Shown one piece after another: positions 3,376 through 23,077 of a DNA stretch of 64,000 nt. Each line of letters opens with the position of its first letter. Position 1 is the stretch's first letter. The notes under the pieces were generated by a model. That model was given only the letters and a program-made list of their open reading frames with translations, was not told the origin of the DNA and did no database searches. Made by a program: the position numbers and the translations under genes. The stretch is from Legionella shakespearei DSM 23087 (GTDB lineage: Bacteria > Pseudomonadota > Gammaproteobacteria > Legionellales > Legionellaceae). The stretch is taken from positions 121,982 to 185,981 of the forward strand of contig NZ_KB892393.1 in the NCBI RefSeq assembly GCF_000373765.1. The letters are read 5' to 3'.

Positions 3376-3452
3376 GTCCCGGTGGCGCAGCTGGATAGCG
3401 CGGCCCCCTCCTAAGGGGCAGGTCGCAGGTTCGAATCCTGCCCGGGACGCCA
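3376..3452 (+). tRNA. tRNA-Arg (anticodon CCT)
   Basis: A complete cloverleaf is visible. The acceptor stem GTCCCGG pairs with CCGGGAC. The anticodon stem GCCCC/GGGGC carries the loop CTCCTAA, which gives anticodon CCT. The T arm is GCAGG-TTCGAAT-CCTGC, and the sequence ends in an encoded CCA. Its 3' half is duplicated at 23029-23077, so it is the integration site of the island to its right. Confidence 0.97.
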
Positions 3453-4163: not shown

Positions 4164-5921
4164 TTAGGGAGCATATTGAAGCTCTTTTAACAACCATTCC
4201 AATTGTCGTCTCGCTGTTGAAATCAAGTCACTGAATAAAATAATATTAACACTTGATTCTTTATCGAACGAAGGCAAGTCATTTCCTTTTTTTCCACCGA
4301 TTAAATAAATATTAATATTAGCTTTTCCTGTATAATTTCGATAATCATTACGATAGCCGGTAACCTGCTGATAATCTTGATAAGTTAAGCAATGTGCTGG
4401 CTTTTTAAATTCGATGAGAAGATAATCTCCATTCAAATTTTCACTAAGCATTAAATCCGGACGCTTACTATCATTTAAACCAGAATATTTTTGATTCAGC
4501 ATTTTTTCAATTTGCTTTTTCAATGTTGTATTCGAACTAAAAAGACTGTAACTTGGCCCTAATATCCATAAATTATGTTCAATAGCCTTGTGCACATCTT
4601 GTTCAAGAGTTTCATGAGTATTGCAAAGCATTTCTAGATGATCTAAAAATTCCAAGCGATTTCTAGCCTGCTCCCTCATCCTTACCATATCTAATAATCC
4701 AAATTCATCGAGAGCTTCTGCAAAGACTTTCACATCAGAATTTTTTGCTTTATTAATATGTTCTAACACAATTCTGTAATCAGAAAATTCTATAGCATCC
4801 AATAAGACATTCACTATTGGTTCAACTTTACTTTCAGGCTCTTGATAATACCGCTCCAAAACTTTAAAAATAGCTTTTTCTGCATACTGTCTTTTGAACT
4901 CAGGAAATGAAGCTAGGCGCTGATCTATTTTCTTTTTTATACGAGCCAGAGCTAAATGTATTTCTTGGCCATAAACCTCTTTAAATTTCTCTCTTAAAAT
5001 CGGCTGTACAGTTTCCTCAACCATACGATATTTTTCACTGTTTTCAAAAATTGCGCCCCAATCAGCGGTCACATCATCAAGCAATCCATCAGCTTCAATT
5101 TCTCCAAAACACTTTTTTAGAAGTTTCGGTGGGAAATCTTCTGCCTTCTCTAGCCCCAAAAAAGAGGGTTCTCCAACAACCTTTCCTCCAATTCGCATTA
5201 TAATTCCAGGCTTCCTGAGAGAGCCTTTTTGATCAGATATAGTAAAACGTAGCCTAATTTTACCCACTTCAGGAATATCAATCTCTTGTTCGAAGAAAAC
5301 CCCTTGAATATCATCAACATCGAGTTTTTTTCCGTTAATTGTTAAAGAAAAATCGGCTTCTCTGCCATATTCTTGAATTAATAATTGCCGAAGACTTTCT
5401 GGACTAGGAAAGCCAATATGGCGACAGAGATCAGTCAAAGTAATCCTGGTACCACTTTTTTTACTATTATCTTCTGTTGATAAAACATTAATTGGTATCT
5501 CATGTAGATCAGGGTAATGATCTAAGGAGGATGTGCTAAACTGTAACTCATAACGAATCCCCATCGCCCACGTCTCTATTTTCATTGTAGTAGCAAGCAT
5601 AAAACCAGCGAACTTACCAATACCTTTAGAGCCTTTAACTTTCCGCATCTTGGCTAAGCTAAAATCACCGTGTCGCATTCTTCGGTTACTTGCAATATTC
5701 AAATATTCACTTTCAAGCTCCTCTCTGCTCATACCTCTGCCATCATCTTCAATAATGATTGGTTCATTAGTCATAGGCATTGGCAAAGAAATCGATACTA
5801 AGTTAGCATCAGCATCCCATGCGTTATCAATAAGCTCTTTTATAGCTTTTTCCGTTGAGCGATAATTTTGACTTAAAAGTTTTAATAAATGAACATCAAT
5901 TTTAAATGTTACTTTATCCAT
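4164..5921 (-). CDS. GHKL (HSP90-like) ATPase fused to a PD-(D/E)XK nuclease-like domain; putative defence protein
   Basis: The 585-residue protein has an N-terminal GHKL ATPase with all main motifs: N-box ELIDNAWDADA (about residues 28-38), DDGRGMS (59-65), KGSKGIGKFAG (96-106) and a G3-like GTRITLTDL. A helical middle follows. The last 130 residues carry RPDLML followed by YLLIEFKKP, the D...ExK spacing of PD-(D/E)XK nucleases as in Shedu-type proteins. ATPase-nuclease fusions of this kind are common in anti-phage islands, so defence is the likely role. It is separated by 76 bases from the end of the RiPP cluster on the same strand, and may or may not be cotranscribed. No partner gene is evident. 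Confidence 0.75.
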   Translation of the reverse strand: MDKVTFKIDVHLLKLLSQNYRSTEKAIKELIDNAWDADANLVSISLPMPMTNEPIIIEDDGRGMSREELESEYLNIASNRRMRHGDFSLAKMRKVKGSKGIGKFAGFMLATTMKIETWAMGIRYELQFSTSSLDHYPDLHEIPINVLSTEDNSKKSGTRITLTDLCRHIGFPSPESLRQLLIQEYGREADFSLTINGKKLDVDDIQGVFFEQEIDIPEVGKIRLRFTISDQKGSLRKPGIIMRIGGKVVGEPSFLGLEKAEDFPPKLLKKCFGEIEADGLLDDVTADWGAIFENSEKYRMVEETVQPILREKFKEVYGQEIHLALARIKKKIDQRLASFPEFKRQYAEKAIFKVLERYYQEPESKVEPIVNVLLDAIEFSDYRIVLEHINKAKNSDVKVFAEALDEFGLLDMVRMREQARNRLEFLDHLEMLCNTHETLEQDVHKAIEHNLWILGPSYSLFSSNTTLKKQIEKMLNQKYSGLNDSKRPDLMLSENLNGDYLLIEFKKPAHCLTYQDYQQVTGYRNDYRNYTGKANINIYLIGGKKGNDLPSFDKESSVNIILFSDLISTARRQLEWLLKELQYAP

Positions 5922-5997: not shown

Positions 5998-6681
5998 TTA
6001 TTCCACAAGAAATACATTATTAACCACACTGGTTTGATAGGTATCCTTCTGAAATGACTTTTGATAAATTGATCTCTGAAACGCCTCTCCACGTGCTTGT
6101 ATAAGCCAATCTTTCGACCTTTTCATAGAAATAATAGAAATATCATTTTCTTTAGCATAAATTGCAAGCCATATGTCAGTCATATTGGGAGATAAGAATA
6201 TTTCTCGAGAAATCTTTATATGGTCAGTATGGAAGCCTAAAGTGCCAGTACCAGGCACATCAACTTTTATGTCACTTTCGAGTTCTTTTTCAAAATGAAC
6301 ACCCTGCTTATCTTTGTAATAAGAAGTCAACTTTTGTTTAGGTAAAATATTTCCATGCACACAAATCAAAGTTTTTCTCTGATAAAAATCAATTTTTCTT
6401 ACCATAGAATCGACATAATCTGGTGGATAAATTAAATCATCATCAATGGTTAAAATATAACCATTTTGCTGTTCAATTTGGTAAAATTTTCCGATGTCTC
6501 CAATATCCCCGTATTCCTGACTTGTAAATACACAAATCTTCTTATGGTTTAAAAACGAAGGAATAGAACTATAGTTATTAAGATAAACTTGGATTTCATC
6601 GACTTTCTTTAAAAAATTCTCAATTGTTACTTCTAGTTGAGATATCCGCTCAGGTATTGATGCTATTTTGACAGTAATCAT
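5998..6681 (-). CDS. Glycosyltransferase (GT-A-like) of the RiPP cluster
   Basis: The 227-residue protein starts with a beta-alpha-beta unit (MITVKIASIPERISQLEVTI) and has a DXD-type metal/nucleotide-sugar motif in LTIDDDLIYPPDYV (about residues 77-90). DVPGTGTLGFHTD may be the acceptor loop. No membrane segment or signal is seen, so it should act in the cytoplasm. Its ATG directly follows the TGA of the PIG-L-type gene with no gap. I infer that it adds a sugar to the peptide product or a carrier; donor and acceptor cannot be read from sequence. It is the last gene of the cluster. Confidence 0.7.
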   Translation of the reverse strand: MITVKIASIPERISQLEVTIENFLKKVDEIQVYLNNYSSIPSFLNHKKICVFTSQEYGDIGDIGKFYQIEQQNGYILTIDDDLIYPPDYVDSMVRKIDFYQRKTLICVHGNILPKQKLTSYYKDKQGVHFEKELESDIKVDVPGTGTLGFHTDHIKISREIFLSPNMTDIWLAIYAKENDISIISMKRSKDWLIQARGEAFQRSIYQKSFQKDTYQTSVVNNVFLVE

Positions 6682-7239
6682 TCAAACACCTTGATTGGGC
6701 GCATAATAAAGGTTCTCAGGAGGAATATAATCACTTTTCCAAGTCCAGGCACGACTCTTAATATATATGTCTTTAACCTTTGAATAAAAATTAAGATCAT
6801 TTTTTACTGTTATTATATTTTTTGGATTATTAACTCCATCATTGCAAAGAGGAGAAAAAATCTTTACCTCATGAAATAGCATGAAAACCAATTTATTAAC
6901 TAAAATATGGTCGTCATGCCCATATTCACCCTCTGCATTGTGGGTATATATTTCAGTTATCACAAATTGTTTTTTCAGGTTTTCTAAAGCATCATAAAGT
7001 GCTTGTTCTGATTTTTGAAACTCTAGCTGTCGTTTGCCATCCTTCCAAAATCCTGATTCTTCAATACCAAGTAAAACAATGCGATCTCTTAGTGGATGCG
7101 CTTCTATAGCTAATTTTCTACAGTATTCCGCATAAGGCTTATCATGACGAGCTAAAAAAGCAATGATAATAAGATCAAAATCTTGAGGTGAAAACCATAT
7201 TATTTCATCATCAGGATGAGCCACTATTAATGCTTTCAT
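6682..7239 (-). CDS. PIG-L-type zinc deacetylase
   Basis: The 185-residue protein begins MKALIVAHPDDEIIWFSP; AHPDDE is the signature zinc and catalytic motif of the PIG-L/LmbE family. The second zinc motif is GEYGHDDH (HxxH type) at about residues 126-133. Family members remove acetyl groups from N-acetylglucosamine conjugates, as in GPI, mycothiol and bacillithiol synthesis. The start overlaps the preceding stop (ATGA) and the stop abuts the glycosyltransferase start. The pair suggests glycosylation with an N-acetylated sugar followed by deacetylation. Substrate is inference. Confidence 0.75.
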   Translation of the reverse strand: MKALIVAHPDDEIIWFSPQDFDLIIIAFLARHDKPYAEYCRKLAIEAHPLRDRIVLLGIEESGFWKDGKRQLEFQKSEQALYDALENLKKQFVITEIYTHNAEGEYGHDDHILVNKLVFMLFHEVKIFSPLCNDGVNNPKNIITVKNDLNFYSKVKDIYIKSRAWTWKSDYIPPENLYYAPNQGV

Positions 7240-7883
7240 ACAACCAAACTCTCACATTTATCAACTAAATGATGCTCCACTAGTTCAACCTTTATAGGGT
7301 CTAATAAATCGAGATGTGCATCATGATGAGTTGTTAAAATAATGCCACAATGAATGGCTTTTTCTTGTAAGAGCATTAATAATGCTTGCTGTGACTTTTT
7401 ATCCAGGCCATTTAATGGCTCATCTAAAATAATAAAATCAGGTTGACCTATTAAGGCTGAGCTTAAAAGAAATTTCTTTTTAGTGCCAAAAGACATATCA
7501 GCGATGCGAGTTTTTAAATGCGGTTGTAACTCCAATCGCTCAAGAATCTGGTTTATTTCATCAACTTTCTTTGTTCTTGCCTTTGCAAGCCAAGATAAGA
7601 GCTCTTTTCCGGTTAGAAAAGGATATACTGCTAAATCATCAGGTACATAAAATAAATTTTTTGCATTAACGCTATTATCGCTTACTGGATAGTGGTTATT
7701 TAAAATAATAGAACCTGAATCGGGAACATCTAAACCAACTAGCAGACGTAAAAGAGTCGATTTTCCAGTGCCGTTCTTTCCTATAATATGATAAGCCTGT
7801 TGCTGAAAAGTATATGAAAGATTTGCAAATAAGACTTTATCAGCAAAAGCCTTATTAACTTTCTGTAATTGTATGTGACTCAC
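7236..7883 (-). CDS. ABC transporter ATP-binding protein
   Basis: This is a single nucleotide-binding domain of about 215 residues. Walker A is GKNGTGKSTLL, the signature-like region is ADMSFGTKKKFLLSSALIG, Walker B is FIILDEPLNGLD, and the switch histidine lies in LTTHHD. The signature departs from LSGGQ (MSFGTKKK), as in ABC-2 type drug and antibiotic exporters. I prefer GTG at 7883, one base after the upstream stop and with GGAG ten bases before it. An in-frame GTG at 7925 would overlap the ABC-2 gene by 41 bases. It should energise the preceding membrane protein. Confidence 0.85.
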   Translation of the reverse strand: MSHIQLQKVNKAFADKVLFANLSYTFQQQAYHIIGKNGTGKSTLLRLLVGLDVPDSGSIILNNHYPVSDNSVNAKNLFYVPDDLAVYPFLTGKELLSWLAKARTKKVDEINQILERLELQPHLKTRIADMSFGTKKKFLLSSALIGQPDFIILDEPLNGLDKKSQQALLMLLQEKAIHCGIILTTHHDAHLDLLDPIKVELVEHHLVDKCESLVV

Positions 7884-7884
7884 C

Positions 7885-9135
7885 TTAGTATGCTCCCAGA
7901 AAGATGTATTGGACAACACAACCACCCACAGTATTTAACAAAGAGCTAAACAAGCAGAACCGCAGAGATAGTGCGTAAAGAGTTCTATTTATTGCAAATA
8001 AAACACCATTCATTGCAAAAATAACTAAGATCAATAAACAGTAATTTTTTAAACTAAAAATGCAAAACAAAAACACTGGCATTAATGCCAACATTAATCC
8101 TATCCAAATGAGTATTATCTCTTTAATAGGTTGAGCATGTTTTTGATAAGGAAATATACTGTGGAATAATGCGTACTCTAATTTTCCTTTTTCAAAAAGA
8201 GTAAATAGCGTCGATAAGATATAAGTTTGCAACCCTAGCAAAACAAGAATAAGTCCCTGTCGGTTATCCACTGTTTCCTGAGGGTTTAATACTTGTAATA
8301 TAAGTAGTGATATGGCGAAACAAAGCGTAAATCTAATTAAAAACGAAATTTTATTCTGCCTTAAAACAGCTAATTGAATAATAAAAATATTTTTTAAAGA
8401 GTGAATACTTTTTAAGCTATTAAAAATATCAAGGCGCAGTATATTAAATGAAGATTTTTGTTCATGCCGACGAGGTTGTATTGTTCCAAGAATAATACAA
8501 CACAGCAAAGAAATGCTTAACCCGACACCAAAATTTAACAACGAGCTGCCCTGCTTTGAAATGACAATAATTAAAAGAAGTGCTAAGAAAGCCATAACTC
8601 CTTTAGCTATTCTTTTATAAAGAAAATTCAGTAGCAGAGTACACAGCACAAATACAGTAGATGCATAGAGACAATATTGCGAGGCCTTAAATAAGGTATC
8701 TTCAGTATTATGAAGAATATTGGCTCCTCCAAAGAAAATAGCCAGCCAGACAAGATTTAAAGAAAGTAAAAGGATAATGAAATCTATTGCCTTATGAACT
8801 CGCAAAGGAATGTATAAAGTATGCAGATATTCTCTAAATATCCCACCTTTTATAAAAGAAGATTGCGCTCTAGTCAGACTCAGCAAAAAGAAAAGTAATG
8901 TAACCAAATAAATAAACTTTGCTTTAAATGTCATGGATGGATCAATAAGGGCATAAAAAGGAATACCAATCGCTTGAATATTTTTTACCCCTGGTGCTAA
9001 TAAACAGATAATAAAGGCTGTTAATAGTTTATGTCTGGCAATCAATTCTTTGGTTTCATTAAAATAATATTGAGCTCGAAACTTAAGGAACTGATGATTA
9101 AAATAGTTCTTATTTAACTGAGTCAGTTCTAACAT
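7885..9135 (-). CDS. ABC-2-like membrane protein of the RiPP cluster
   Basis: The 416-residue protein has about ten hydrophobic segments (for example LLTAFIICLLAPG, FIYLVTLLFFLLSLT, FIILLLSLNLVWLAIFF, GVMAFLALLLIIVIS, LMLALMPVFLFCIFSL) and a soluble N-terminal stretch. It lacks recognised catalytic motifs. It sits between a full ABC exporter and a lone ABC ATPase, and overlaps the former by seven bases. It is most simply the permease partner of the ATPase at 7236-7883, giving the cluster a second transporter. That may serve export or self-protection. Confidence 0.65.
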   Translation of the reverse strand: MLELTQLNKNYFNHQFLKFRAQYYFNETKELIARHKLLTAFIICLLAPGVKNIQAIGIPFYALIDPSMTFKAKFIYLVTLLFFLLSLTRAQSSFIKGGIFREYLHTLYIPLRVHKAIDFIILLLSLNLVWLAIFFGGANILHNTEDTLFKASQYCLYASTVFVLCTLLLNFLYKRIAKGVMAFLALLLIIVISKQGSSLLNFGVGLSISLLCCIILGTIQPRRHEQKSSFNILRLDIFNSLKSIHSLKNIFIIQLAVLRQNKISFLIRFTLCFAISLLILQVLNPQETVDNRQGLILVLLGLQTYILSTLFTLFEKGKLEYALFHSIFPYQKHAQPIKEIILIWIGLMLALMPVFLFCIFSLKNYCLLILVIFAMNGVLFAINRTLYALSLRFCLFSSLLNTVGGCVVQYIFLGAY

Positions 9136-10820
9136 GTTAGTGCACCTTCATTATAAAATTTTTTATAAGGCTCTCGTGAGGAAAAAGATATGGTCTTAGG
9201 AATAATTGAATGAATATCTCTAGAATGGGTAATGACAATTAAGGTTTGGTTTTTTAAAGCAACTAGGTTACTCAAAACCTTTCTTTCAAGATCTTTGTCT
9301 AATCCAGAGGTTGATTCATCTAAAATAAGAATTTTAGGCTTAAACAATAACGCACGAGCTATTGCAACTCTTTGTATTTGACCTCCTGATAAAGAGCTCC
9401 CTTGCTCGCCTAACTTTGTATCTAGACCTTGAGGCAATGCACTGATAAATTCATGGCAACAAGAGATATTTAATACCTCGCTTAACTCAGATTCGGAATA
9501 ATCTGTATTACTATAGCAAATGTTTTCTCGTATGGTTCTATTAAAAAGAAGTGGATTTTGCTCTACTAAAATAACTAATTTATTAAGCTCAGTTCGTGAA
9601 AATTGGTTTAATTGCCTATCTCCAAGAGTGATTTGTCCTTTAAATCCGGTGTGTAAACCCACTAAAAGTTTTGCGAATGTTGATTTTCCTATTCCTGATC
9701 TACCTTGCATTAAGATTTTTTCACCAAAATCAATTTCTAATGATAAATCCTCAATAGCTTTGATTCCTGATAAAAACATATAGCTAAGATTTTTTACTCT
9801 AAGATTTGGCTCAATAATAGGAGTTACATGTGGCTCTGAACATAAAGTGCTGGAATCATCTTGTCCTTTAGCTAAATGGTCATAAGCTTCTCTTATTGTG
9901 CCCAACTCTCGTGCGAAAATAGTAAGCTGAAAAGAACTAAACCAGACATAATTAATTAAATTGAAGGTTACAAAAGCAACAAAAATAAAATCCCCTATCG
10001 AATAATAGCCTTTATTAAAACCACTTACCTGGTGAATGACTAAAGCAATAATAAAAATTAAGGAAAATAAACTTTGAACTATTTTTATTCTTTCAAAAAA
10101 AAACTGTGCCTTTCTTAACGCTGATTTTTCAGAAGATAAGTGTGTATCTAAATTTTTTAATTCGTACTTTTCACCTACATAAATCTTAATAGAGGATATT
10201 CTGCTAATTAGCTCGCAAAGAGTGCCTGAGATAAAGGAATGAATCTTGTTATATTGTTGCACGACTTTAAGTGATTTTTTTAATCGATACCACGTAGTTA
10301 AAAAGTGAATTGAGAACCATGTAATAATAAAAACAGAATAGAATGGCTCAATTGAATATAGAAACACTGCAGCCAGCAATACAGAAAGAGAGATAGGAAA
10401 AAAATTATAAAAAACAATTTGTATTATTCTTTCTGAAGATGAAGCAAAATCATTAACCTTCTGAGTTAAACTACCTGGCATTGTTTCTAAGAAATAAGCA
10501 TATTTTTTTTTAAGTAAACTACCTATCAGTTGGCTTTTAATATTTTTCTTAAACTTAGGTAAAACAATCGCCACAAAAAAGCCCTGACTTCTAATAACCA
10601 CTTCTGATATAAGAAAAATTATTAAAAATACGATCACAGCACGAGTAACTCCTATTTGCTCATACTTTACAGCAGCACACATATTCAAAATATACCGAAT
10701 TGCCCAAGGAGTGACACATTGTTGGATAGCACTAAAAACTGAAGTAACAATTAGCAACATAAAGCCAAGCTTTTGCTTTTTTATGTTATCTAAAAAAATA
10801 TTGATTAAAGGCACTTTCAT
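9129..10820 (-). CDS. ABC exporter, fused membrane and ATPase domains
   Basis: This 563-residue half-transporter has about six membrane segments in the first 300 residues and a nucleotide-binding domain in the last 230. Walker A is GRSGIGKSTF, the signature LSGGQIQRVAIARAL, Walker B ILILDESTSGLD and the switch histidine VITHS. There is no N-terminal C39 peptidase domain, so it would not cleave a leader itself. No other protease is evident in the cluster. It overlaps its neighbours at both ends (ATGA with the TauD-type gene). It is the likely exporter of the mature peptide. Confidence 0.85.
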   Translation of the reverse strand: MKVPLINIFLDNIKKQKLGFMLLIVTSVFSAIQQCVTPWAIRYILNMCAAVKYEQIGVTRAVIVFLIIFLISEVVIRSQGFFVAIVLPKFKKNIKSQLIGSLLKKKYAYFLETMPGSLTQKVNDFASSSERIIQIVFYNFFPISLSVLLAAVFLYSIEPFYSVFIITWFSIHFLTTWYRLKKSLKVVQQYNKIHSFISGTLCELISRISSIKIYVGEKYELKNLDTHLSSEKSALRKAQFFFERIKIVQSLFSLIFIIALVIHQVSGFNKGYYSIGDFIFVAFVTFNLINYVWFSSFQLTIFARELGTIREAYDHLAKGQDDSSTLCSEPHVTPIIEPNLRVKNLSYMFLSGIKAIEDLSLEIDFGEKILMQGRSGIGKSTFAKLLVGLHTGFKGQITLGDRQLNQFSRTELNKLVILVEQNPLLFNRTIRENICYSNTDYSESELSEVLNISCCHEFISALPQGLDTKLGEQGSSLSGGQIQRVAIARALLFKPKILILDESTSGLDKDLERKVLSNLVALKNQTLIVITHSRDIHSIIPKTISFSSREPYKKFYNEGALTC

Positions 10821-11605
10821 TGTGATATCGACTCATTCCAAAATCGAAGTAATAATCTATCATCCTGATCACTGAACGCTGTTCTACCATGTAATACCTG
10901 ACAATTATCCATCATAAGTAAATCATTTTCTTTTAAAGAGAACCGATATTGATTTGCAGGCTCATGAATAAATTTATTAATCCATGAAATCATGTCATAC
11001 CCAAGCTCATTTGTTTCTAAGCCTCGTACAGTGGGAGAGTAGGACATACCAATCATGCCATTGCTCATATGAAATAATAATTGCTTCTTGGTTTTCCCAG
11101 ATGCAGTATTTATTTGAATAAAATTAGGACAAAATAAGTTTTCTATATCTTCTTTAAATACCGCGCGTAATCCAGCCAACAATTCCGTAACTTTTATAAT
11201 AGTACTAACCCCCCCTTTCAATGAAGACTTGACGCAATAAAGAGAAACAAATCTGGGAAATGCGGTACGGTATCCTTCATCACAGTGAAGTGGCTGTGAA
11301 AATGCCGTATTAATATAAAATTTTCCATTATTTACAGCTTCCACCCGAGCAATATATTTTTTATTAATACCAACATCTCTGATTTGTTGCCCAAATGTTT
11401 TTGCCAATCCTCTTAATATTGAGAGCACAGTTCTTTCTTTCATATTGATAACTGCAAATCCATTTTCCTGGATTATTGCTTTCAGCAAGTCTGCGATTAA
11501 AAAAGTATCCTCATCAACAAAAGGTAATACATCTGACTTTCCTGGATGATTACAATAATTTTCACTACTAATGTGAGCCTGAATATCTTTGAGATTAAGC
11601 AACAT
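10817..11605 (-). CDS. TauD/clavaminate synthase-type 2-oxoglutarate Fe(II) dioxygenase
   Basis: The 262-residue protein has the facial triad and 2-oxoglutarate site of the TauD/TfdA superfamily. HxD is in PLHCDEGYR (about residue 109), the distal histidine is in DNCQVLHGRTAF, and the 2-oxoglutarate arginine is in DDRLLLRFW. The first 40 residues are poorly conserved. It overlaps the HExxH-like gene by 11 bases and the exporter gene by four. Enzymes of this type hydroxylate or cyclise amino acids and peptides, so it is a candidate peptide-tailoring oxygenase. The modified residue is unknown. Confidence 0.8.
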   Translation of the reverse strand: MLLNLKDIQAHISSENYCNHPGKSDVLPFVDEDTFLIADLLKAIIQENGFAVINMKERTVLSILRGLAKTFGQQIRDVGINKKYIARVEAVNNGKFYINTAFSQPLHCDEGYRTAFPRFVSLYCVKSSLKGGVSTIIKVTELLAGLRAVFKEDIENLFCPNFIQINTASGKTKKQLLFHMSNGMIGMSYSPTVRGLETNELGYDMISWINKFIHEPANQYRFSLKENDLLMMDNCQVLHGRTAFSDQDDRLLLRFWNESISQ

Positions 11606-12425
11606 GACTTATTTCCAAATCTAACTTATGAAGCAATTCACCATATGAACTCAATAACTTTTTTCCTTTCAAGGTGAATAAATTAATATGATCATTTAAA
11701 ATTAAAAACCCATCCTTACATCGCTGCATTGCGGTAGATGTTATCGGGTGATAATTAACTTGGGCCTCTAATGTTTGAAAATTATATCGGTAATTTAAAA
11801 CTTCGATACCAACACAAAGACTATGGAAAAAAATATATAGAGGGAATAAATTTCCGCCTCTTTTATGTGTCGCAGCCGTTCTTACAGGAAGTTGTTTATG
11901 GGAGTCTTCAACTAGAGGCTCTATGAAATCATCGATAAAAAGTAGCATATGAGTAATTTGATGAATAATAAGCTCATTAAAATCTTCTTGATTAAAATGT
12001 TCTTTAAAATCAATATGAGCAATCCCTAATCCATCAGCTGTTGTTCCCTCTATATATGAGTCTAATTCCGTAATCAAAATAGCTTTAATTAATTGGTTAC
12101 AAAAAAGAGCAGCCATAGGATGAGCATTACTGAATGATTTATAGTGTTCATCTATTTTCTTTTCTTCAACTAGAGTAGCTGAATAACGATTATCATGAGA
12201 AAAATAATCTTCTCTTTTATTAACGTAATATGGAATAATATTTAAAGACTGAAATTTCGTAAGAAAAATTGTCTCACTCCAATCTGGAACTGAGTTGAAT
12301 GCTGAAATATTAGGTAAAACTTTATCGTAGGAAAGTATCTCAGCCAGCCTATTTTCAATTGCATACTTTTTTTCAAACTCAGTTAATAACACCTCAAGCT
12401 TGTTTTCATTAAAAAATGCAAACAT
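11595..12425 (-). CDS. HExxH-type putative peptide hydroxylase with HQITH
   Basis: The 276-residue protein resembles the RiPP-associated family with an HExxH motif, in which studied members are iron/2-oxoglutarate peptide beta-hydroxylases. The motif region reads ELIIHQITHMLLFIDDF (about residues 148-164), with glutamine where glutamate is usual. Downstream, THKRGGNLFPLYIFFHSLCVG offers the arginine and third histidine expected of the family. I chose ATG at 12425, which overlaps the PhyH-type stop (TAATG). The longer frame begins inside that gene. Family assignment rests on motif layout and context and is moderate. Confidence 0.55.
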   Translation of the reverse strand: MFAFFNENKLEVLLTEFEKKYAIENRLAEILSYDKVLPNISAFNSVPDWSETIFLTKFQSLNIIPYYVNKREDYFSHDNRYSATLVEEKKIDEHYKSFSNAHPMAALFCNQLIKAILITELDSYIEGTTADGLGIAHIDFKEHFNQEDFNELIIHQITHMLLFIDDFIEPLVEDSHKQLPVRTAATHKRGGNLFPLYIFFHSLCVGIEVLNYRYNFQTLEAQVNYHPITSTAMQRCKDGFLILNDHINLFTLKGKKLLSSYGELLHKLDLEISHVA

Positions 12426-13195
12426 TAAAGAATCTCCCTCGATAGAGTTTTGCGCCATTGTTCATAATCTTTCTCAGATGAACGCTCTATTCTTGGTGGA
12501 AATTTTTCACGCTTAAAGGCGAAATAAGCATCCCTTAAATCCCCAAAGTTATCTGGAGAGTAAGTAATAAAATAACAATTTCTATCTAATTGGGATAAAT
12601 TATCATTAGATTGATGAACTAGATAAGAACTGAAACATAAAAGATCTCCAGGGACCATTTTGACATCTTGCCAATTTATATCCTTTTTTACATCGTATTC
12701 ATCTAGTTCAATACTACCATTGACATGAGGCAGTAACTCTTTCAAGTATTTTTGACTTGAAACTCTAAAACAACCATTTTTTTCGTCAGAAAAATGAATG
12801 GGGATCATAATAGTAATAAGTTCATCATCTACAAATTTTCTAAATGCAGCTCCATCCTGATGAGGTCTAAATCCACCCCCACCAGATAATTTATAATTAA
12901 TTTTTTCTTTAAAAAGTCGATAGTTCCTAGCTGTAAGTTCTTTTAGTAATCTACCAATTTTTTCACCTCTAACAAGCTCATTAAGTAATGGTAAGTAATC
13001 ACAAAATTTTTCGACCCGATTTAGAATAATCTCATCATTAATTTGACTTTTTTCAAAATACTTCATGGGACCACCAATTATCTCAGGAACTTCTTTAAGA
13101 TAAGAGGCACCTGTTTCCCACAATTTTATTTCGTCACTATTAAAAAAATTTTTTAATAATACATATCCATTGGTTTTATAATCGGCTATCAACAT
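12425..13195 (-). CDS. Phytanoyl-CoA dioxygenase (PhyH)-family oxygenase
   Basis: The 256-residue protein shows the PhyH pattern: NGYVLLKNFFNSDEI at the start, the iron-binding HxD in FRPHQDGAAF (about residues 110-119), GCFRVSSQ in the middle, and the distal histidine in PGDLLCFSSYLVHQSNDN. These are Fe(II)/2-oxoglutarate enzymes that hydroxylate or halogenate small molecules, including natural products. The start lies one base after the MNIO stop (TGATATG), and the stop overlaps the next start. It is one of three predicted oxygenases besides the MNIO. Its target is not predictable. Confidence 0.8.
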   Translation of the reverse strand: MLIADYKTNGYVLLKNFFNSDEIKLWETGASYLKEVPEIIGGPMKYFEKSQINDEIILNRVEKFCDYLPLLNELVRGEKIGRLLKELTARNYRLFKEKINYKLSGGGGFRPHQDGAAFRKFVDDELITIMIPIHFSDEKNGCFRVSSQKYLKELLPHVNGSIELDEYDVKKDINWQDVKMVPGDLLCFSSYLVHQSNDNLSQLDRNCYFITYSPDNFGDLRDAYFAFKREKFPPRIERSSEKDYEQWRKTLSREIL

Positions 13196-13196
13196 A

Positions 13197-14042
13197 TCAC
13201 ATCATCACTTTAGCTTGTTCTACTCTATATTTTCGCATAATGCTTCTGGCAAATTGCACCTCTTCAATAATGTCTGAAAAAGGCTCAAAATTAGCATCTC
13301 GTTCGATTACCACACCACGAAAAGGAACCGTTCGTGCTACATAATCAAAAAGCTTCCAAACCTCTTTTGAAATTGCATTAGCATGGGTATCAACATGCAT
13401 ATTTTCTTTAAATGAACCACCTGCTAAGTGGATTTCAACAACGCGTTCTAAAGGAAGCTTGCTCAAGAATTCATAAGGGTCATAATTATGGTTGAGAGAA
13501 TTTAAATACAGATTATTCAAGTCCAAAAGCATGCCACAATTAGCTTGCAAAAGAATTTTAGAAAGAAACTCTGCTTCGCTCATAGATGAGTTCGGTACAA
13601 TATAATAATAGGTAATATTTTCGAGCAAGAAAGGACAGGCTATACGCTGAGTTAACGATTTAACCTTAGAGACAATAAGGTCTATGTTTTCGTCATTGAA
13701 GCTTATTGGCATAAGATGACCAACTTCAATGTTATTAATTTTAGTTAGACTAATATGATCACTATACCAATGACAATTAGTTTCATTAATAACTGTTTCG
13801 AGTTTAGCGCAATAAGATTCATCGAGTTCTTCAGGTGTACCAATCGATAAATCTAGGCCGTGTAAAACTAACGGTTTCTTGCTAATAAGACGTTTTAATC
13901 TGCTATTTTGTTCCCGAATAAAAAATCTTTCTGAATAGGCCTCAATAAAATCAAATAAATCAAGATTCTGCTCTATTTGCTCTCCAATAGCATTCATGTA
14001 ACTGATGCCAACGCCTAAGTCTGCTCCTGATGAATACAACAT
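13197..14042 (-). CDS. MNIO (DUF692) multinuclear iron oxidative enzyme
   Basis: This 281-residue TIM-barrel protein belongs to the MbnB/TglH/BufB family, whose members use two or three irons to rearrange cysteine-containing peptides. Metal-ligand blocks are all present in order: LVLHGLDLSIG, WYSDHIS, FLLENITYYY, MLLDLNNLYLNSLNHNYDP, EIHLAGG, DTHA and GVVIERD. The ATG at 14042 overlaps the stop of the partner gene (TAATG), with GAAGG four bases upstream. The coupling to a partner and the nearby cysteine-bearing peptide identify the cluster as an MNIO RiPP pathway. The product chemistry (oxazolone, thiooxazole, excision and so on) cannot be read from sequence. Confidence 0.9.
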   Translation of the reverse strand: MLYSSGADLGVGISYMNAIGEQIEQNLDLFDFIEAYSERFFIREQNSRLKRLISKKPLVLHGLDLSIGTPEELDESYCAKLETVINETNCHWYSDHISLTKINNIEVGHLMPISFNDENIDLIVSKVKSLTQRIACPFLLENITYYYIVPNSSMSEAEFLSKILLQANCGMLLDLNNLYLNSLNHNYDPYEFLSKLPLERVVEIHLAGGSFKENMHVDTHANAISKEVWKLFDYVARTVPFRGVVIERDANFEPFSDIIEEVQFARSIMRKYRVEQAKVMM

Positions 14043-14860
14043 TATCCTTCTCTCTGCTGAATAACCCAAACACCTAATTGCTCAAGTTTTTTTAAAAATC
14101 CTAAAAAATCACCTTGTGATAATCGCTCTTCAAAAAAATGATAAGCTGCTAACAAATTTTGGCAATCAATCACTTTCTCCACTATTTCCCTAACATCCTT
14201 GGATAAACTTAATGTGCCAATCCCTTCCTTTTTTAAATTCTTAAAAAATAAAACCGTACAATCTTCTTTGATAAATTTTTTATCTTTTTTATTTAGGATA
14301 GATGGAATGTTATATTCAAATTCCTCTATCCGGTAACACTCATGTATATACACTATATAACTATCTAGGCCAGTAAATTCAGTTAAATCAATTACCTTTG
14401 AGGCATGAAAAATAAAGTTTTCATGATGCTTATAGGTCACTTCATTTCTTATTCTTTCATATCGAACAATTTGTTTCTCGATACAATCTAATAATGGACT
14501 TTGCTCTGCAAAAAAAGCGAAGCAAATACTTTCGGCTAAAGGATTTTTGGGTGGGTTGGCTTTAATTGTTAGGCTATCTAGATAACTATCCCAAATACTA
14601 GTGAGACGTTGAGTATCCAAAAAATCAACCGTAATCGGTAAAGAAGCTTTAATATCATCTCCTCTATTTTTCTTTAAAATACGAGCAGAGGCGATAAAGC
14701 GTTTGCTATTACGTTGATAAAAATCATCAATAATTTGCATATCATGTGCAGTCAAATTTAAATCGGAACTAATTTGCGTTCGAAAATCATCATAATTTTC
14801 TAATGCATTAAGATTTGTTATTAATGCTGCGAGAACTGTTTGTATTGTGTTATTGTCCAT
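14042..14860 (-). CDS. MNIO partner protein (MbnC/TglI/BufC-like role)
   Basis: The 272-residue helical protein lies directly before the MNIO, where the precursor-binding partner is usually encoded. The N-terminal half (TVLAALITNLNALENYDDF, MQIIDDFYQRNSKRFIASARI) resembles the DUF2063-like helical domain of such partners. A middle part with alternating strands follows, and a C-terminal segment (LGFLKKLEQLGVWVIQQREG). Primary sequence similarity is weak, so the call depends on position and size. I chose ATG at 14860; an upstream in-frame TTG at 14875 is less likely. It overlaps the GNAT stop by 11 bases. Confidence 0.65.
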   Translation of the reverse strand: MDNNTIQTVLAALITNLNALENYDDFRTQISSDLNLTAHDMQIIDDFYQRNSKRFIASARILKKNRGDDIKASLPITVDFLDTQRLTSIWDSYLDSLTIKANPPKNPLAESICFAFFAEQSPLLDCIEKQIVRYERIRNEVTYKHHENFIFHASKVIDLTEFTGLDSYIVYIHECYRIEEFEYNIPSILNKKDKKFIKEDCTVLFFKNLKKEGIGTLSLSKDVREIVEKVIDCQNLLAAYHFFEERLSQGDFLGFLKKLEQLGVWVIQQREG

Positions 14861-15395
14861 GATGTAAAACTTCAATTTCTAAAACCATTAAATGCTCATC
14901 TTCATAAGCATCATTGATTTTTATAGCGTTTCTTTTAATCCCTTCTGTAATGAAACCAAATTTCTGAGTAAGAGCAATGGATTTATAATTACTTTGCGCA
15001 ACATGGCCCTCTATTCTTCTGAGATTATTTCTTTTTGCATGATCAATCATTTCAATAAATAATTGATTAGCAATCCCTTGAGAAGAATAAGACTCAAGGA
15101 TACCTATTCCAATAGTCGCTACATGAGATTTTCTATTATTTCGATAAGCTTCAACAGAAAGATACCCTACAACGTTATTATCCTCTGATAGCGTATCAAA
15201 TGCTAAAAAGATAGCTGATTTTGGATAGTTTATTGCAGAAATGATCTTGTCTTTATATTTGCTAATATCAGAAGATCTTTCCCCTGGCTGAAATGTTGTA
15301 TATACAACCTCTTCATCCAACTTGAGAAGCATAACGGCCCAATCAGGCGCATCTTGAGGCAATGCTTTTCTTACAATGATGTTATTTGATTTCAT
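14850..15395 (-). CDS. GNAT (RimJ/RimL-type) N-acetyltransferase of the RiPP cluster
   Basis: The 181-residue protein is a single GNAT domain. The acetyl-CoA loop lies in IGILESYSSQGIANQLFIEM (Q-x-x-G-x-A form), followed by NNLRRIEGHVAQSNYKSIALTQKFGFITEGIKRNAI, the usual C-terminal 'N..s..l..k.GF..eG..r' block. RimJ/RimL-like enzymes acetylate N-termini or amines. It is the first gene after the precursor gene, 41 bases away. It may acetylate the peptide N-terminus or a released amine, or protect the host from the product. Confidence 0.8.
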   Translation of the reverse strand: MKSNNIIVRKALPQDAPDWAVMLLKLDEEVVYTTFQPGERSSDISKYKDKIISAINYPKSAIFLAFDTLSEDNNVVGYLSVEAYRNNRKSHVATIGIGILESYSSQGIANQLFIEMIDHAKRNNLRRIEGHVAQSNYKSIALTQKFGFITEGIKRNAIKINDAYEDEHLMVLEIEVLHHGQ

Positions 15396-15436
15396 TTAAA
15401 GACAATAATTGAGGCCAGGTAAACCCAGCCTAATTA

Positions 15437-15514
15437 CTAAGGACAGCCAACAGAGTTACAAAGAACTTCAACACTGTTTGCAGATTCTTCAATAATTTCG
15501 ATATTTAGATCCAT
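15437..15514 (-). CDS. Candidate RiPP precursor peptide, 25 residues
   Basis: A 26-codon gene on the minus strand starts at ATG 15514 with GGAG seven bases upstream and ends with TAG at 15439-15437. The peptide has an acidic, hydrophobic leader-like part (MDLNIEIIEESANSVEVL) and ends in CNSVGCP. The two cysteines are at residues 19 and 24. It is the first gene of the cluster, directly before the GNAT, partner and MNIO genes. Size, position, ribosome binding site and paired C-terminal cysteines fit an MNIO substrate. There is no signal peptide, unlike bufferins. It is not homologous to any precursor I can name. Confidence 0.8.
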   Translation of the reverse strand: MDLNIEIIEESANSVEVLCNSVGCP

Positions 15515-15737
15515 TTTTTTCTCCATAATTATTTTTTGAAAAAAGACAGACTTGTCTGTATTTCCTTATGAGCAATTGAGTTCATCCGTTGCTCAGGGCC
15601 AATTATACATAGAATAACGATGTTTAAAAGCCCCAAAAATAAGCAGGAAGTGTTTTAATTTTTTAACTATATAATAAATAATGAAAACAGGAGAGATATT
15701 TATTTTTAATATCTCTTCAATGATACTAATATAAAAT
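15515..15737 (-). promoter_or_regulatory. Leader region of the RiPP cluster
   Basis: This 223-base gap before the precursor gene holds three signals on the minus strand. A TATAAT -10 hexamer lies at 15607-15602, with a weak -35. An inverted repeat TGAGCAA (15569-15575) / TTGCTCA (15589-15595) would form a 5'-UTR hairpin. A perfect palindrome ACAGAC-TT-GTCTGT lies at 15546-15559, about 32 bases before the start codon. The last could be an operator. No further gene is seen here. Confidence 0.5.
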
Positions 15738-16043
15738 TTAAGGGAGATAACCCTTCATATGTCTTAAAAGATCCATCTTTTCCTGTGAATTCAATTTTTC
15801 AAATAATTTAATAAATTCAGCTAAATTATCATCTTCTGAATAAAAATAAGCAGTGGGTATTTTCAGAATATCTGCAATTCGTTTTAAAGTCGCATAATCA
15901 GGATTATGGCGCCCCATTTCATAATGATTCATTCTAGCGCTAGCAGAAAACTCATCCATTCCGGCAGCAATACCCAGTTTTTTCTGGGAAATTTGAGCCA
16001 CTAATCTGGCTTCTTTAAGTCTCTTAGGAACAGGAGAATCCAT
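15738..16043 (-). CDS. XRE-family helix-turn-helix regulator
   Basis: The 101-residue protein has an N-terminal Cro/C1-type HTH: LKEARLVAQISQKKLGIAAGM with the recognition segment SASARMNHYEMGRHNPDYATLKRIADIL. A short C-terminal part (AEFIKLFEKLNSQEKMDLLRHMKGYL) probably dimerises. It is transcribed toward the RiPP cluster, whose first start codon is 223 bases beyond its stop. Three related palindromes lie upstream of its start (16072-16157), so autoregulation is likely. It is also a candidate switch for the RiPP genes, though the palindrome there is different. Confidence 0.85.
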   Translation of the reverse strand: MDSPVPKRLKEARLVAQISQKKLGIAAGMDEFSASARMNHYEMGRHNPDYATLKRIADILKIPTAYFYSEDDNLAEFIKLFEKLNSQEKMDLLRHMKGYLP

Positions 16044-17452: not shown

Positions 17453-17710
17453 CTACATAGGCAAATTATAAAATCGGCAGGTACAAAACGGGCGGCGATA
17501 CCCACATTCACACAATGCTTTTATCTCATTCATATTTGTAGTGTTTTCCAAACTATCTTTTTGATTTGTGGATATATTAAAAGAACATAGAGAACACAGA
17601 GAACCCTCTTCACACAGTAGATCTAAATCGGTTCCCTCAAATACACGTATAGAGGGAACAGGGAGTACAGGTGTGTTATCAAGACGATCTAATAATTCAC
17701 GAAGTCCCAT
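17453..17710 (-). CDS. Cysteine-rich small island protein
   Basis: The 85-residue protein begins MGLRELLDRLDN and carries cysteine clusters CEEGSLCSLCSFN and CECGYRRPFCTCRFYN, which could bind zinc. ATG at 17710 has GGAG six bases upstream and overlaps the helicase stop by 14 bases. The longer frame to 17764 lies inside that gene. The short length and clusters suggest a small zinc-ribbon-like protein. Function is unknown. Confidence 0.5.
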   Translation of the reverse strand: MGLRELLDRLDNTPVLPVPSIRVFEGTDLDLLCEEGSLCSLCSFNISTNQKDSLENTTNMNEIKALCECGYRRPFCTCRFYNLPM

Positions 17711-19623
17711 AACTAACTCCATTTTCAACAGGTAAAATCCAGTATAGTATTGAGGGATGGCCATTAATCCTTATTTTTTTAGATCGTTTACCATGATCAT
17801 GTTCTGCAATCCAACCTGCATCATTTAATGTTCGTAAGATGAATGATAAATCATACCCAATTGCAGCTTCCTGTAGTGCAGCGGAATTAAACATAAATAT
17901 TCTTCCTTGTAGTGTTTCTTTCCAATATCCTGCACGATCTCTCACAATTGGTCTTTGCTCAACATTATCCCCCTTGTAATCAATCCGATCTATTCCTAAT
18001 TCAGAAAATCGACTATCTCCATGACGGTCAATGAATTGGTATATTCCCTCAAGTATCTGCCTAGTTTCAGTTTCCCCCTGACCACGAAATCCACGCCATA
18101 TTTTAAAGCACTCAATAACTGCTTTTAATGCCTCCCCTTCCTGCCATCCGGTTAAATCATACTCAGTTGCTTTTTCACCTGCCATTGCTATTAACGCAAA
18201 TATACCCGCGGCACGACTTTCAACACCATCGGATGATTTAAACTCTGAATGATTGCACAGCCTTGCATACAAATCGGGTAGACAATCCTTATCCTCTAAT
18301 AATTTTTTAATAAATTCAGGTCCCGCCATACCGTAATATGAACTAGTTGATTGTTTTAAGTAATCTGCAAAAGCACGACTATCCTCAAATCCATGTAGTT
18401 CATCAAATACACCATACAAACGATCTGTAACTGGAATACTTAAGAGTCGCACCTCTTGGCCGGCTTTGATTTTCTTCCCCGATTCTTGCATATGTGCTGA
18501 TAATGTACTTTCGCCACTGGAGAGAACTATTGTTCTCCAATTAGCTGCTTCTTGTAGCCCCCCTGCACGCTTAGCTCGCTGTTTTCCTTGCCCATTTGCC
18601 ACGGCATAAACAATAGCTCCTATTTCACGAGGATCACTTTGACCAATTTCATCTAGTATGAGTAAACAATCATTTAAAATGATATTGGTTGCTTCTAATC
18701 CATTAGCAGTAGCACGCCATGTACGAACATATGTTGGACTACCCCATATGCTTGCAGCAACCTGTAGTGCTGTTGTTTTACCTCGACTAGATTTACCCAT
18801 AATATGAACCCCCGCTCCTCCTGAATACTGCTGTTTTGCTTTTAGTAGTAAAGGAGCAGCAAAGGCTGTAGCAAGAGAGAATAACAACACTGGATTTCCT
18901 TTACATTTTGATGCAACTGTATCGCGCCATGCTTCGATAGTTCCTTTTTCTATAAAATTATTTTGTATGACAAATTCAGATTGGAAGCGGACGGTATTAT
19001 TTCCTCCAATGGTTTTATTAGGCATCACGAAGACTGTACCATCGGAATTCCATCCGTACGCGTAGCAGCGATTATCCGAGTCTTTGGCTTCTGCTCCATT
19101 AACCATGCACTTAGATGCATTTTTGCATTCAGATTCATTTTTACACCTAAATCTAATAGTTCATGACGGATTTCCTCACCACTACCTTTTAGAAGCCACA
19201 TGGGCATCGACCATTCTCGCCATTGTCCATATGTATTTATAAATCTTAATAACAACCCAAATGACTCTCCGCGTTCATTTGCAGTTGTTGCTTCAGCATG
19301 AATAGGTGAACAAATCCATACATCTACAGGATATTGCTGACCAGCGCTTGTTTTATATCCATGCCAATAAAGATCTGGCTTCTTATGTGACTCTCCAATT
19401 TTGAACCAATCATCGTATACCTTATAACTAGGCCGCTCTATTTCTGGCTCTTCAGATATAGCGGGCGGTGACTCTAATGGTAAAATTGTTTCTAGTTCAT
19501 ATCCTATAGTTCCCTCAGTTCTCTTGATGTTTTTTCAAGGTAACTGCTATTTTCTTTATTGGTATTGATAGTTCTCTCAGTTACCTCTGTTCCCTCGCAA
19601 ATTTCCAGATCAATATTAGACAT
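17697..19623 (-). pseudogene. DUF927 island helicase, broken by two frameshifts
   Basis: Three successive frames together encode a DUF927 protein. Frame 1 starts at ATG 19623 and stops at 19507-19505 (TAG). Frame 2 covers the DUF927 N-terminal part, including LLLRFINTYGQWREWSMPMW and KTRIIAATR. Frame 3 (from about 19060 to 17697) carries GWNSDGTVFVMPNKT, the P-loop MGKSSRGKTTAL, and LLILDEIGQSD. Each junction fits the loss of one base. At the second, one extra G near 19055 would restore ATRTGWNSDG. The P-loop half is intact for about 470 codons. DUF927 proteins accompany primases in P4-like islands. It is a pseudogene unless the shifts are assembly errors. Confidence 0.8.
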
Positions 19624-19624
19624 G

Positions 19625-20524
19625 TTATTCCCCTTGCTCAAAAAACCAACAGTGCAGATCATTAAAATCTTTTAACGACTTCGGTGAACCCTCAGGCCAT
19701 TTAGGTTGGCTAAATAATGCTCCCGATGCGATTGCAGCCTCCCGTCCTTTAATTAACCCAGGATTATCTGCTCTCATTCTGTCATCATCAGCACAAATAA
19801 TGATTTCTGCACTTGCTAGATTCTTACGAATAGAGCATGCGACTGGTTTTAAATTTCCTGCATTACAAGCCGCAATCACGCAATATGTAGGACATTTTTC
19901 AGCTAAAGTTGCACCTGTAGCAAATCCCTCACAAATTAATATTTTTTGATTATGATTTGGTCGATATTGAATAGGTATAAAATATTCTTTTATTGCTCCA
20001 TTTAACAAAAACCTTTTTTCACCAAGTTCATTGATATACTGCAAACTCCATATCTTTCCGCCAAAATCAATTACAGGTAGCACTATTTCTTGATAAAATT
20101 GACGAGCGTAATGTGGTGGTATGCGTTTCTTTTTCAGGTATGGATGATGTGGATTTGCTTTTGGATAACCCTCCCAGAGGTTCTCAGCAAGAGAAGCCGC
20201 TTCTTGTTGTTCTTTGTCTTTCATCGCATTACGTATTTTGCATGCCTCATTGATGCGTTCCATTTGGTTACGACGTTCAGCTTTCGTCATGCAGCCTTGA
20301 TTTTTAGCACTCCATTTAAAATGCACTCCTTTTTTCCAACTACCGAATACCCCACACGATACACCGTCAAGATAAAGCACATACCATCCATTTTTTGATC
20401 TAAATTTATCTCCCACAATATGGAAACGATGTAGCTTCCCATCCGCGATGATTTCCTCTGGGGGAGTAATTCCATTTGCTAAAAACTCTGCTTGGAACTG
20501 ATTAATAATTTGATTAAAATCCAT
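19625..20524 (-). CDS. TOPRIM-domain primase of the island
   Basis: The protein of about 299 residues has an N-terminal part with basic strands (FRSKNGWYVLYLDGVSCGVFGSWKKG). The C-terminal TOPRIM fold shows the acidic motifs ILICEGFATGATLAE (glutamate) and IICADDDRM (DxD). This matches primases of P4-alpha/phage-satellite type. No zinc finger is obvious. ATG at 20524 follows AAGGA. The stop lies one base before the helicase start. It should prime replication of the excised island, but the partner helicase is broken. Confidence 0.8.
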   Translation of the reverse strand: MDFNQIINQFQAEFLANGITPPEEIIADGKLHRFHIVGDKFRSKNGWYVLYLDGVSCGVFGSWKKGVHFKWSAKNQGCMTKAERRNQMERINEACKIRNAMKDKEQQEAASLAENLWEGYPKANPHHPYLKKKRIPPHYARQFYQEIVLPVIDFGGKIWSLQYINELGEKRFLLNGAIKEYFIPIQYRPNHNQKILICEGFATGATLAEKCPTYCVIAACNAGNLKPVACSIRKNLASAEIIICADDDRMRADNPGLIKGREAAIASGALFSQPKWPEGSPKSLKDFNDLHCWFFEQGE

Positions 20525-20666
20525 GATAAAAATCCTTTTCATTCTTTTTTAATTGGTGACAAACTTCCTCTAATTCGCTTTGGATATAAATTTGCCCTAA
20601 AGCGATCTTTTTGCTTATTTGAATAATTTTTATCAAAAATAAAGCAAGAATTATTTCAAAGCTCAT
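20514..20666 (-). CDS. Possible 50-residue island peptide
   Basis: A short frame opens with ATG at 20666, overlapping the end of the AlpA gene, and ends at 20514 inside the primase start. It has an apolar helix (FEIILALFLIKIIQI) followed by a charged helix (YIQSELEEVCHQLKKNE). The tight overlaps on both sides suggest translational coupling. There is no strong ribosome binding site. It may be a real small membrane peptide or just a leader for the primase. Confidence 0.35.
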   Translation of the reverse strand: MSFEIILALFLIKIIQISKKIALGQIYIQSELEEVCHQLKKNEKDFYHGF

Positions 20667-23028: not shown

Positions 23029-23077
23029 CCTCCTAAGGGGCAGGTCGCAGGTTCGAATCCTGACCGGGACGCCAGTA
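23029..23077 (+). other. attR, 49-bp tRNA-Arg fragment
   Basis: This copies the tRNA-Arg 3' half (anticodon arm through CCA plus three bases). It matches 3407-3455 except for A at 23063 in place of C. It lacks the 5' half, so it is not a tRNA. It marks the right junction of the island. Confidence 0.9.

Follow-up and report, generated by a model that had tools for sequence, protein, structure and literature searches.

An island-borne MNIO gene cluster of Legionella shakespearei and the apparently undescribed peptide family to which it belongs

What might a peptide gene of 25 codons, followed by a dense run of predicted oxygenases, sugar enzymes and transporters, produce in a Legionella? The question is raised by a 64,000-nt stretch of Legionella shakespearei DSM 23087 (NZ_KB892393.1; hereafter the window, whose positions are used throughout), in which a preliminary description had placed an undescribed MNIO-type cluster for a ribosomally synthesized and post-translationally modified peptide (RiPP). 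The cluster (5998-15514) lies wholly on the minus strand and comprises twelve genes: the peptide gene and eleven closely packed genes encoding, in order 3' of it, a GNAT acetyltransferase, an MNIO partner protein, the MNIO, a PhyH-type oxygenase, a protein with an HQxxH motif, a TauD-type oxygenase, an ABC exporter, a DUF6136 membrane protein, an ABC ATPase, a PIG-L deacetylase and a glycosyltransferase. The peptide gene is separated from the GNAT gene by 41 bases, and from there onward neighbours overlap by 1-41 bases or are 0-1 base apart with the starts used here. The tight packing claimed earlier was thus borne out when coordinates and spacings were re-measured, and the gene content (MNIO and partner, three further oxygenases or hydroxylases, GNAT, PIG-L, glycosyltransferase and two ABC systems) proved to be as described; the 25-residue peptide also stands, but the ten genes said to follow it on the same strand are eleven on recount.

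Our analysis makes it probable that these twelve genes constitute an island-borne pathway in which the MNIO and its partner oxidise the peptide, other enzymes hydroxylate it, glucosamine is likely added, and the transporters export the product. This reading draws on comparisons of sequences and predicted models: the association of the peptide family with a single MNIO group, the TglI-like partner, the fold of the HQxxH protein, the kinship of the glycosyltransferase and its pairing with PIG-L. By these comparisons the locus belongs to a real, conserved and apparently undescribed MNIO RiPP family, whose product and role we infer from its genes.

The precursor peptide and its MNIO

The precursor gene (15437-15514, minus strand) is read here from the second of two ATG codons; the other, 12 bases further upstream, would give 29 residues, and the 25-residue start is favoured because it is preceded by GGAG and three Legionella relatives begin at the same Met. 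The peptide divides into a predicted leader with an (I/V)EE motif and a predicted core around LCNSVGCP. Genome contigs were searched with the MNIO, 80 of 88 loci being kept, and small open reading frames of one family were found upstream of the partner-MNIO pair. Lack of a peptide relative beside related MNIO genes had been named beforehand as an outcome that would speak against a RiPP cluster; the search instead returned the pairing in twelve loci, the window and eleven others, which between them cover Legionella, MAGs (metagenome-assembled genomes) of Coxiellaceae/Legionellales and of other gammaproteobacteria, Photorhabdus, Xanthomonas and Luteibacter. All but one share the form (I/V)EE...CN(S/T)xxCP, namely those of the window genome, L. 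drozanskii, F. gormanii, the genome G119, a Coxiellaceae MAG and Legionellales UBA4722 and, outside the Legionellales, Photorhabdus khanii, P. akhurstii, Xanthomonas populi, X. hortorum pv. cynarae and Luteibacter. The twelfth locus, L007, has the variant LCNRACS and falls outside the pattern CN[ST]x(1-3)C(x)stop, which was scanned over 86 loci (1.37 Mb). That scan returned the cluster peptides and two chance places, one present in both copies of a locus (L004/L086) and one in L040, some 6 kb from its MNIO and on the opposite strand; within the window it returned the peptide and one chance place. Over their 25 codons the window and F. gormanii precursors show 13 silent differences and 3 residue-changing ones, so the peptide is conserved beyond chance, and on this codon comparison among Legionella copies the gene is real and under purifying selection.

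The MNIO (13197-14042, minus strand) matches PF05114 at 2.3e-77 (260 bits, cutoff 25), and its putative metal-binding His, Glu, Asn and Asp positions, which we take to be ligands, are invariant in 22 rows. In a quick MNIO tree of 84 rows, computed without bootstrap, the 14 peptide-bearing rows (12 distinct, L084 being identical to L003 and L086 to L004) form one group with SH-aLRT support of 96; a fragment (L078) and two copies of the window (L001 and L083) were left out. The other 70 rows, for some of which the locus is short, gave no CN(S/T)xxCP match next to the MNIO. Among NCBIfam models the best scores are those of HvfB (217.2 bits, cutoff 360) and BufB (213.6, cutoff 310), followed by ApyH of the aminopyruvatides (124.6, cutoff 400), ChrH of the chryseobasins (74.9, cutoff 600) and MbnB of the methanobactins (43.1, cutoff 325). 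A plasmid collection yielded MNIO protein matches in 355 records, all below 60% identity (29.6-33.6% in the 15 listed), and no near DNA match; the viral contigs searched held no MNIO relative. The window's genome carries a second MNIO (L002, G000:C1:27917-28711), 31% identical and outside the precursor group. In an Acidobacteria MAG (L037:6989-7153) and in Nonomuraea (L016:3864-4031), related MNIOs are preceded by different small Cys-rich open reading frames, possibly MNIO precursors in their own right.

The partner (14042-14860, minus strand) is predicted to adopt a TglI-like fold, as judged by fold comparison of its model, with a C-terminal RRE-like domain, the model also giving RRE matches; it resembles PME-type 2, and a Pfam scan gave no match to DUF2063, the mark of PME-type 1. 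Searching the PDB by sequence with the HQxxH and partner profiles returned nothing and only matches at E 0.6-1, respectively; fold comparison was informative for both.

The gap between precursor and GNAT gene holds a predicted RNA hairpin (15396-15436, minus strand; -16.3 kcal/mol, z -3.5 when 15392-15440 is folded). A hairpin is seen in all four post-peptide gaps folded, with z values from -2.95 to -4.0: those of the window, L. drozanskii, F. gormanii and Photorhabdus khanii (L003, L004 and L008: z -4.0, -2.95 and -3.4); the gap of L006 was too long and was left out. Such a structure probably keeps the precursor transcript in excess and so would set the ratio of precursor to enzyme. Directly ahead of the peptide start lies another hairpin with a T-run (15527-15565, z -2.3), a candidate terminator or attenuator, and just upstream, on the same strand, a small helix-turn-helix protein (15738-16043) is a candidate regulator.

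Sugar enzymes, hydroxylases and parallel losses

The glycosyltransferase (5998-6681, minus strand) bears on how the peptide might be decorated. Among proteins of solved structure its matches include heparosan synthase B (9.9e-32) and KfiA (1.2e-17), a profile search strengthens both matches (1.1e-46 and 4.5e-24), and the corresponding domain of Photorhabdus khanii behaves alike (4.6e-29 and 1.9e-16). It falls under the PF00535 cut-off, six of eight members matching at E<=0.01, and its acidic DxD-type motif is an invariant DDD in 8 rows. KfiA is presumably the enzyme that adds N-acetylglucosamine (GlcNAc), and in heparosan synthase B the match presumably covers the GlcNAc-transferase domain. 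By homology, then, the window enzyme is a relative of KfiA-type GlcNAc transferases, with UDP-GlcNAc as its predicted donor. Heparosan itself is built from GlcNAc and glucuronic acid by KfiA and KfiC (PMC5412866).

Adjoining the glycosyltransferase gene is that of the PIG-L deacetylase (6682-7239, minus strand; PF02585, 3e-7), whose AHPDDE and HxDH motifs are invariant in all seven aligned sequences; its profile found no PDB match at 0.01 and is not alike to that of the glycosyltransferase. PIG-L-domain enzymes deacetylate GlcNAc in mycothiol and bacillithiol assembly, and the teicoplanin deacetylase belongs to them as well (PMC4101496). Both sugar genes occur in eight of the twelve loci, adjacent in six (window, L003, L004, G119, L005 and L006) and fused in the two Photorhabdus. 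GlcNAc addition followed by deacetylation, that is, glucosaminylation, is therefore the likely outcome, and gene context suggests the peptide as the sugar acceptor.

The three further oxygenases bear on the core. Both the PhyH-type (12425-13195, minus strand; PF05721, 9.6e-15) and the TauD-type enzyme (10817-11605, minus strand; PF02668, 1.6e-24) retain an invariant HxD...H motif (8/8 and 9/9 aligned). The third protein (11595-12425, minus strand) has, in its predicted model, the fold of the ChlB HExxH domain and hence of the alpha-ketoglutarate HExxH hydroxylases, with HQxxH in place of HExxH in 28 of 28 rows (one a duplicate) and both His invariant. TIGR04267 does not match it at 0.01, and scores 34.7 bits (cutoff 40) with its homologue in L030. 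We regard it as a predicted peptide hydroxylase.

The distribution of this gene hints at its target. The loci of L. drozanskii and G119 hold the eleven-gene set minus the HQxxH gene, of which no trace was found in any frame. In a search of 143 family genomes, the matches were confined to the genomes of the window and of gormanii and to a weak place in G052 (75 residues, E 2.9e-4); G119 and the drozanskii-type G121, which belong to the same family, were not among the matches. Since the MNIO tree pairs the window with drozanskii (support 91) and gormanii with G119 (support 98), so that the losers fall in different sister pairs, and since outgroup loci keep the gene, it was apparently lost twice. 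Both losers have the core CNSVACP and both sisters CNSVGCP, and between the gormanii and G119 precursors this Gly-to-Ala replacement is the sole residue change; four residues are altered in the window/drozanskii pair, and the odds of this single change coinciding with one of them at random are about 4 in 25. A link between loss of the enzyme and Gly-to-Ala before the second Cys is thus suggested by the sequences of two events, and such parallel losses would point to the target residue of the HQxxH enzyme ahead of any experiment.

Transporters, gene variation and the island

The remaining genes vary in their conservation. The ABC ATPase (7236-7925, minus strand; PF00005, 1.2e-22; CcmA/lantibiotic-protection-like NCBIfam matches under cut-offs) is present, like MNIO and partner, in all twelve loci, and the adjoining DUF6136 membrane protein (7885-9135, minus strand; PF19632, 1.6e-7) may well be its permease. 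The ABC exporter (9129-10820, minus strand), which joins membrane and ATPase domains in a single chain (PF00005, PF00664) and in which no peptidase domain was found, occurs in six loci (the four Legionella, the Coxiellaceae MAG and UBA4722). TauD is found in eleven loci, the gap being Luteibacter, whose contig begins some 2 kb upstream; PhyH in nine, not being found in L007 and the two Xanthomonas; the HQxxH gene in nine, with pieces in X. populi; and the GNAT (14850-15395, minus strand; PF13420, 7.3e-15) in eight. The X. hortorum cluster adds a LanM-like gene (L030:5825-8923; DUF4135, 1.8e-60; LanM 203 bits, cutoff 304), which is in pieces in X. populi and of which a stretch lies near the start of the Luteibacter contig. 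These three loci are the ones with core CNTVTCP, with Thr at both variable places. The LanM-like protein aligns with the LanM model (932 positions) only from position 89 to 671 and could be a dehydratase, no cyclase domain having been recognised in it. A HisC-like aminotransferase is additional in the Photorhabdus and Coxiellaceae MAG loci.

The placement of the cluster on a Legionella-like island, made in the preliminary description, is upheld by its ends. The 3' part of a tRNA-Arg (CCT) gene (3407-3440, plus strand) is repeated exactly over 34 bp at 23029-23062 (plus strand), beside an integrase gene (21581-22786, minus strand; PF00589, 4.6e-16), which delimits an island of some 19.6 kb; GC content is 0.31-0.33 in the cluster as opposed to 0.42-0.43 in the first 3 kb of the window. 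An integrase also lies upstream of the L. drozanskii cluster, and a relaxase upstream of that of F. gormanii. Inside the island and adjoining the cluster, an ATPase gene (4164-5921; HATPase_c_3, 8e-26) with a weak C-terminal match to Shedu SduA_C (26.5 bits, cutoff 27) is a possible defence gene, and DUF927 and Toprim proteins between cluster and integrase (17697-20542) are perhaps the island's own replication genes.

Protein and profile searches with the partner reveal a rare and patchy distribution: 4 of 143 genomes of the order (its own included), 1 of 369 in a class sample (the window's own), 1 of 149 in a family sample around P. khanii (P. khanii itself), 2 of 12 in the genus of P. khanii (its own and a stop-bearing fragment) and, among 35 Xanthomonas genomes, 3 (the genome around which it was sampled, one with a stop and one split over two frames). 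Decay is apparent in the X. populi locus, where the reading frames of MNIO and partner fall short of the X. hortorum lengths, and a Xanthomonas genome taken to be the same as X. populi has a stop in the partner. Partner genes are broken in L093 (fragment with a stop), L095 (stop) and L096/L097 (split frames), so that the pathway seems to be decaying in some lineages.

Readings of the pathway and known systems

How these parts might work together can be outlined conditionally. The (I/V)EE leader would dock on the RRE-like domain of the partner, and the MNIO would convert one or both core Cys to an oxidised heterocycle of the thiooxazole or oxazolone/thioamide type. The PhyH, TauD and HQxxH enzymes may then hydroxylate core residues, the last at or beside the residue preceding the second Cys; the KfiA-related enzyme would place GlcNAc on a hydroxyl or thiol and PIG-L would then deacetylate this sugar, as happens on the way to teicoplanin or bacillithiol; the conserved membrane/ATPase pair would export the product or protect the producer. 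As to role, our bet leans first to a secreted competition factor, an antibiotic-type peptide, and second to a metal chelator. A bolder statement, to which we grant rather less than even confidence, is that the loci represent a new RiPP class, spread horizontally in gammaproteobacteria and defined by an MNIO-oxidised CN(S/T)xxCP core bearing free glucosamine (through KfiA-type glycosyltransferase and PIG-L), by an HQxxH hydroxylase acting on the residue before the second Cys, and by loss of that enzyme paired with Gly-to-Ala.

Several observations weigh against this picture. The MNIO scores under the cut-offs of all five NCBIfam MNIO models it matches, and its reaction is therefore not readable from sequence; nor do the eleven genes include a recognised leader peptidase. 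Neither sugar gene was found in four of the twelve loci, so glucosamine is not family-wide, and the two enzymes could act on a target other than the peptide. The GNAT is not tied to the sugar genes, L007 and Xanthomonas having the GNAT only, and L005 and Photorhabdus the sugar genes with no GNAT found; acylation of the sugar by the GNAT was dropped for this inconsistent co-occurrence. Finally, L007 has Ala before the second Cys (CNRACS) and yet carries the HQxxH gene, which contradicts a general rule that Ala at this place means no such gene; that rule was rejected.

The alternatives differ in what they make of the same genes. A metallophore, in which thiooxazole or oxazolone/thioamide ligands formed from the two Cys would bind copper, as in methanobactins and captophorins, and the sugar would tune solubility, is the foremost of them, if still doubtful: HvfB and BufB, the models that give the MNIO its highest scores (217 and 214 bits), stand for captophorin-type enzymes, and the two Cys with Ser between them resemble the methanobactin core; but the HvfB, BufB and MbnB cut-offs are all missed, the partner has no DUF2063 Pfam match, the eleven genes include none recognised as a receptor or copper gene, and a patchy, island-borne spread would suit a competition factor equally. 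We think it unlikely that the sugar genes work for the cell envelope and share no more than a transcript with the rest, leaving the peptide to the oxygenases. KfiA does build a capsule polysaccharide (PMC5412866) and four loci lack detectable sugar genes, but in the other eight both genes sit inside the run headed by the peptide gene, and in Photorhabdus they are fused.

Still less probable is a scaffold pathway, in which the end of the peptide would be built up and then released as a small amino-acid-like metabolite, as in pearlin (3-thiaglutamate), since no PEARL (LanB-like) Pfam match was found among the eleven genes and conservation extends over a block of 6-7 residues instead of a single one. 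That the small open reading frame encodes no precursor, the MNIO having some other substrate, we consider very improbable, given a frame that is conserved, under selection, furnished throughout with (I/V)EE and CN...C and, in the loci scanned, confined to a single MNIO group. The precursor motif, the enzyme set and named isolates (Photorhabdus, Luteibacter, Xanthomonas) are now available for this family; if true, the reading would join MNIO oxidation to aminosugar decoration, which are not combined in the portions of the MNIO papers compared, and if the enzyme predictions hold, the products would form a new family of natural products.

Neither the literature matches listed nor the passages compared, those of an MNIO landscape paper included, describe such a precursor motif or set of genes, which supports the claim of an undescribed cluster, although figures, supplements or most subscription papers may contain an entry. 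The companion claim, that known MNIO pathways are far simpler, fails: in biphenomycin-like clusters (PMC12257519), pfl/pos (PMC12636437) and the pes nitrilobacillins (PMC13060819), MNIOs already occur together with alpha-ketoglutarate HExxH enzymes and further components. Systems of this class are therefore known. The pfl/pos clusters of Pseudomonas share a small precursor, a GNAT, an alpha-ketoglutarate HExxH enzyme, an MNIO and two transporters with the window, but have an MNIO-nitroreductase fusion and an NHLP-type precursor with consecutive Gln and ARMD, and the part of the paper covered names no glycosyltransferase, PIG-L, PhyH or TauD (PMC12636437). The pbs/bpm clusters share MNIO and RRE partner, and bpm also an HExxH hydroxylase and a further hydroxylase; aromatic core motifs, an arginase and a B12 radical SAM enzyme are their own, and the word glycosyltransferase occurs 0 times in the main text (PMC12257519). 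In the nitrilobacillins MNIO, partner and alpha-ketoglutarate HExxH enzyme recur and a core residue co-occurs with the HExxH gene, but the C-terminal R(V/T)DN, an asparagine-synthetase-like nitrile maker and M16 peptidases are peculiar to them (PMC13060819).

Relations to the remaining systems are more partial. The partner fold is common to the window cluster and TglHI of the pearlin/3-thiaglutamate pathway (PDB 8hi7), whose precursor is unlike that of the window; unlike pearlin clusters, the eleven genes give no LanB-type Pfam match, as expected of a PEARL ligase, at E<=0.01. Captophorins (fontiphorin, oxazolin, bufferins) share the nearest NCBIfam MNIO models and a Cys-based precursor, but the window cluster differs in having no DUF2063 Pfam match, no EGKCG repeats and many more tailoring genes (PMC13097082). 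With teicoplanin, mycothiol and bacillithiol it shares a PIG-L-domain enzyme, which in those pathways deacetylates a GlcNAc-type sugar on a small molecule, although these are not ribosomal peptides with an MNIO (PMC4101496). Set against these systems, the precursor family and the aminosugar pair appear new.

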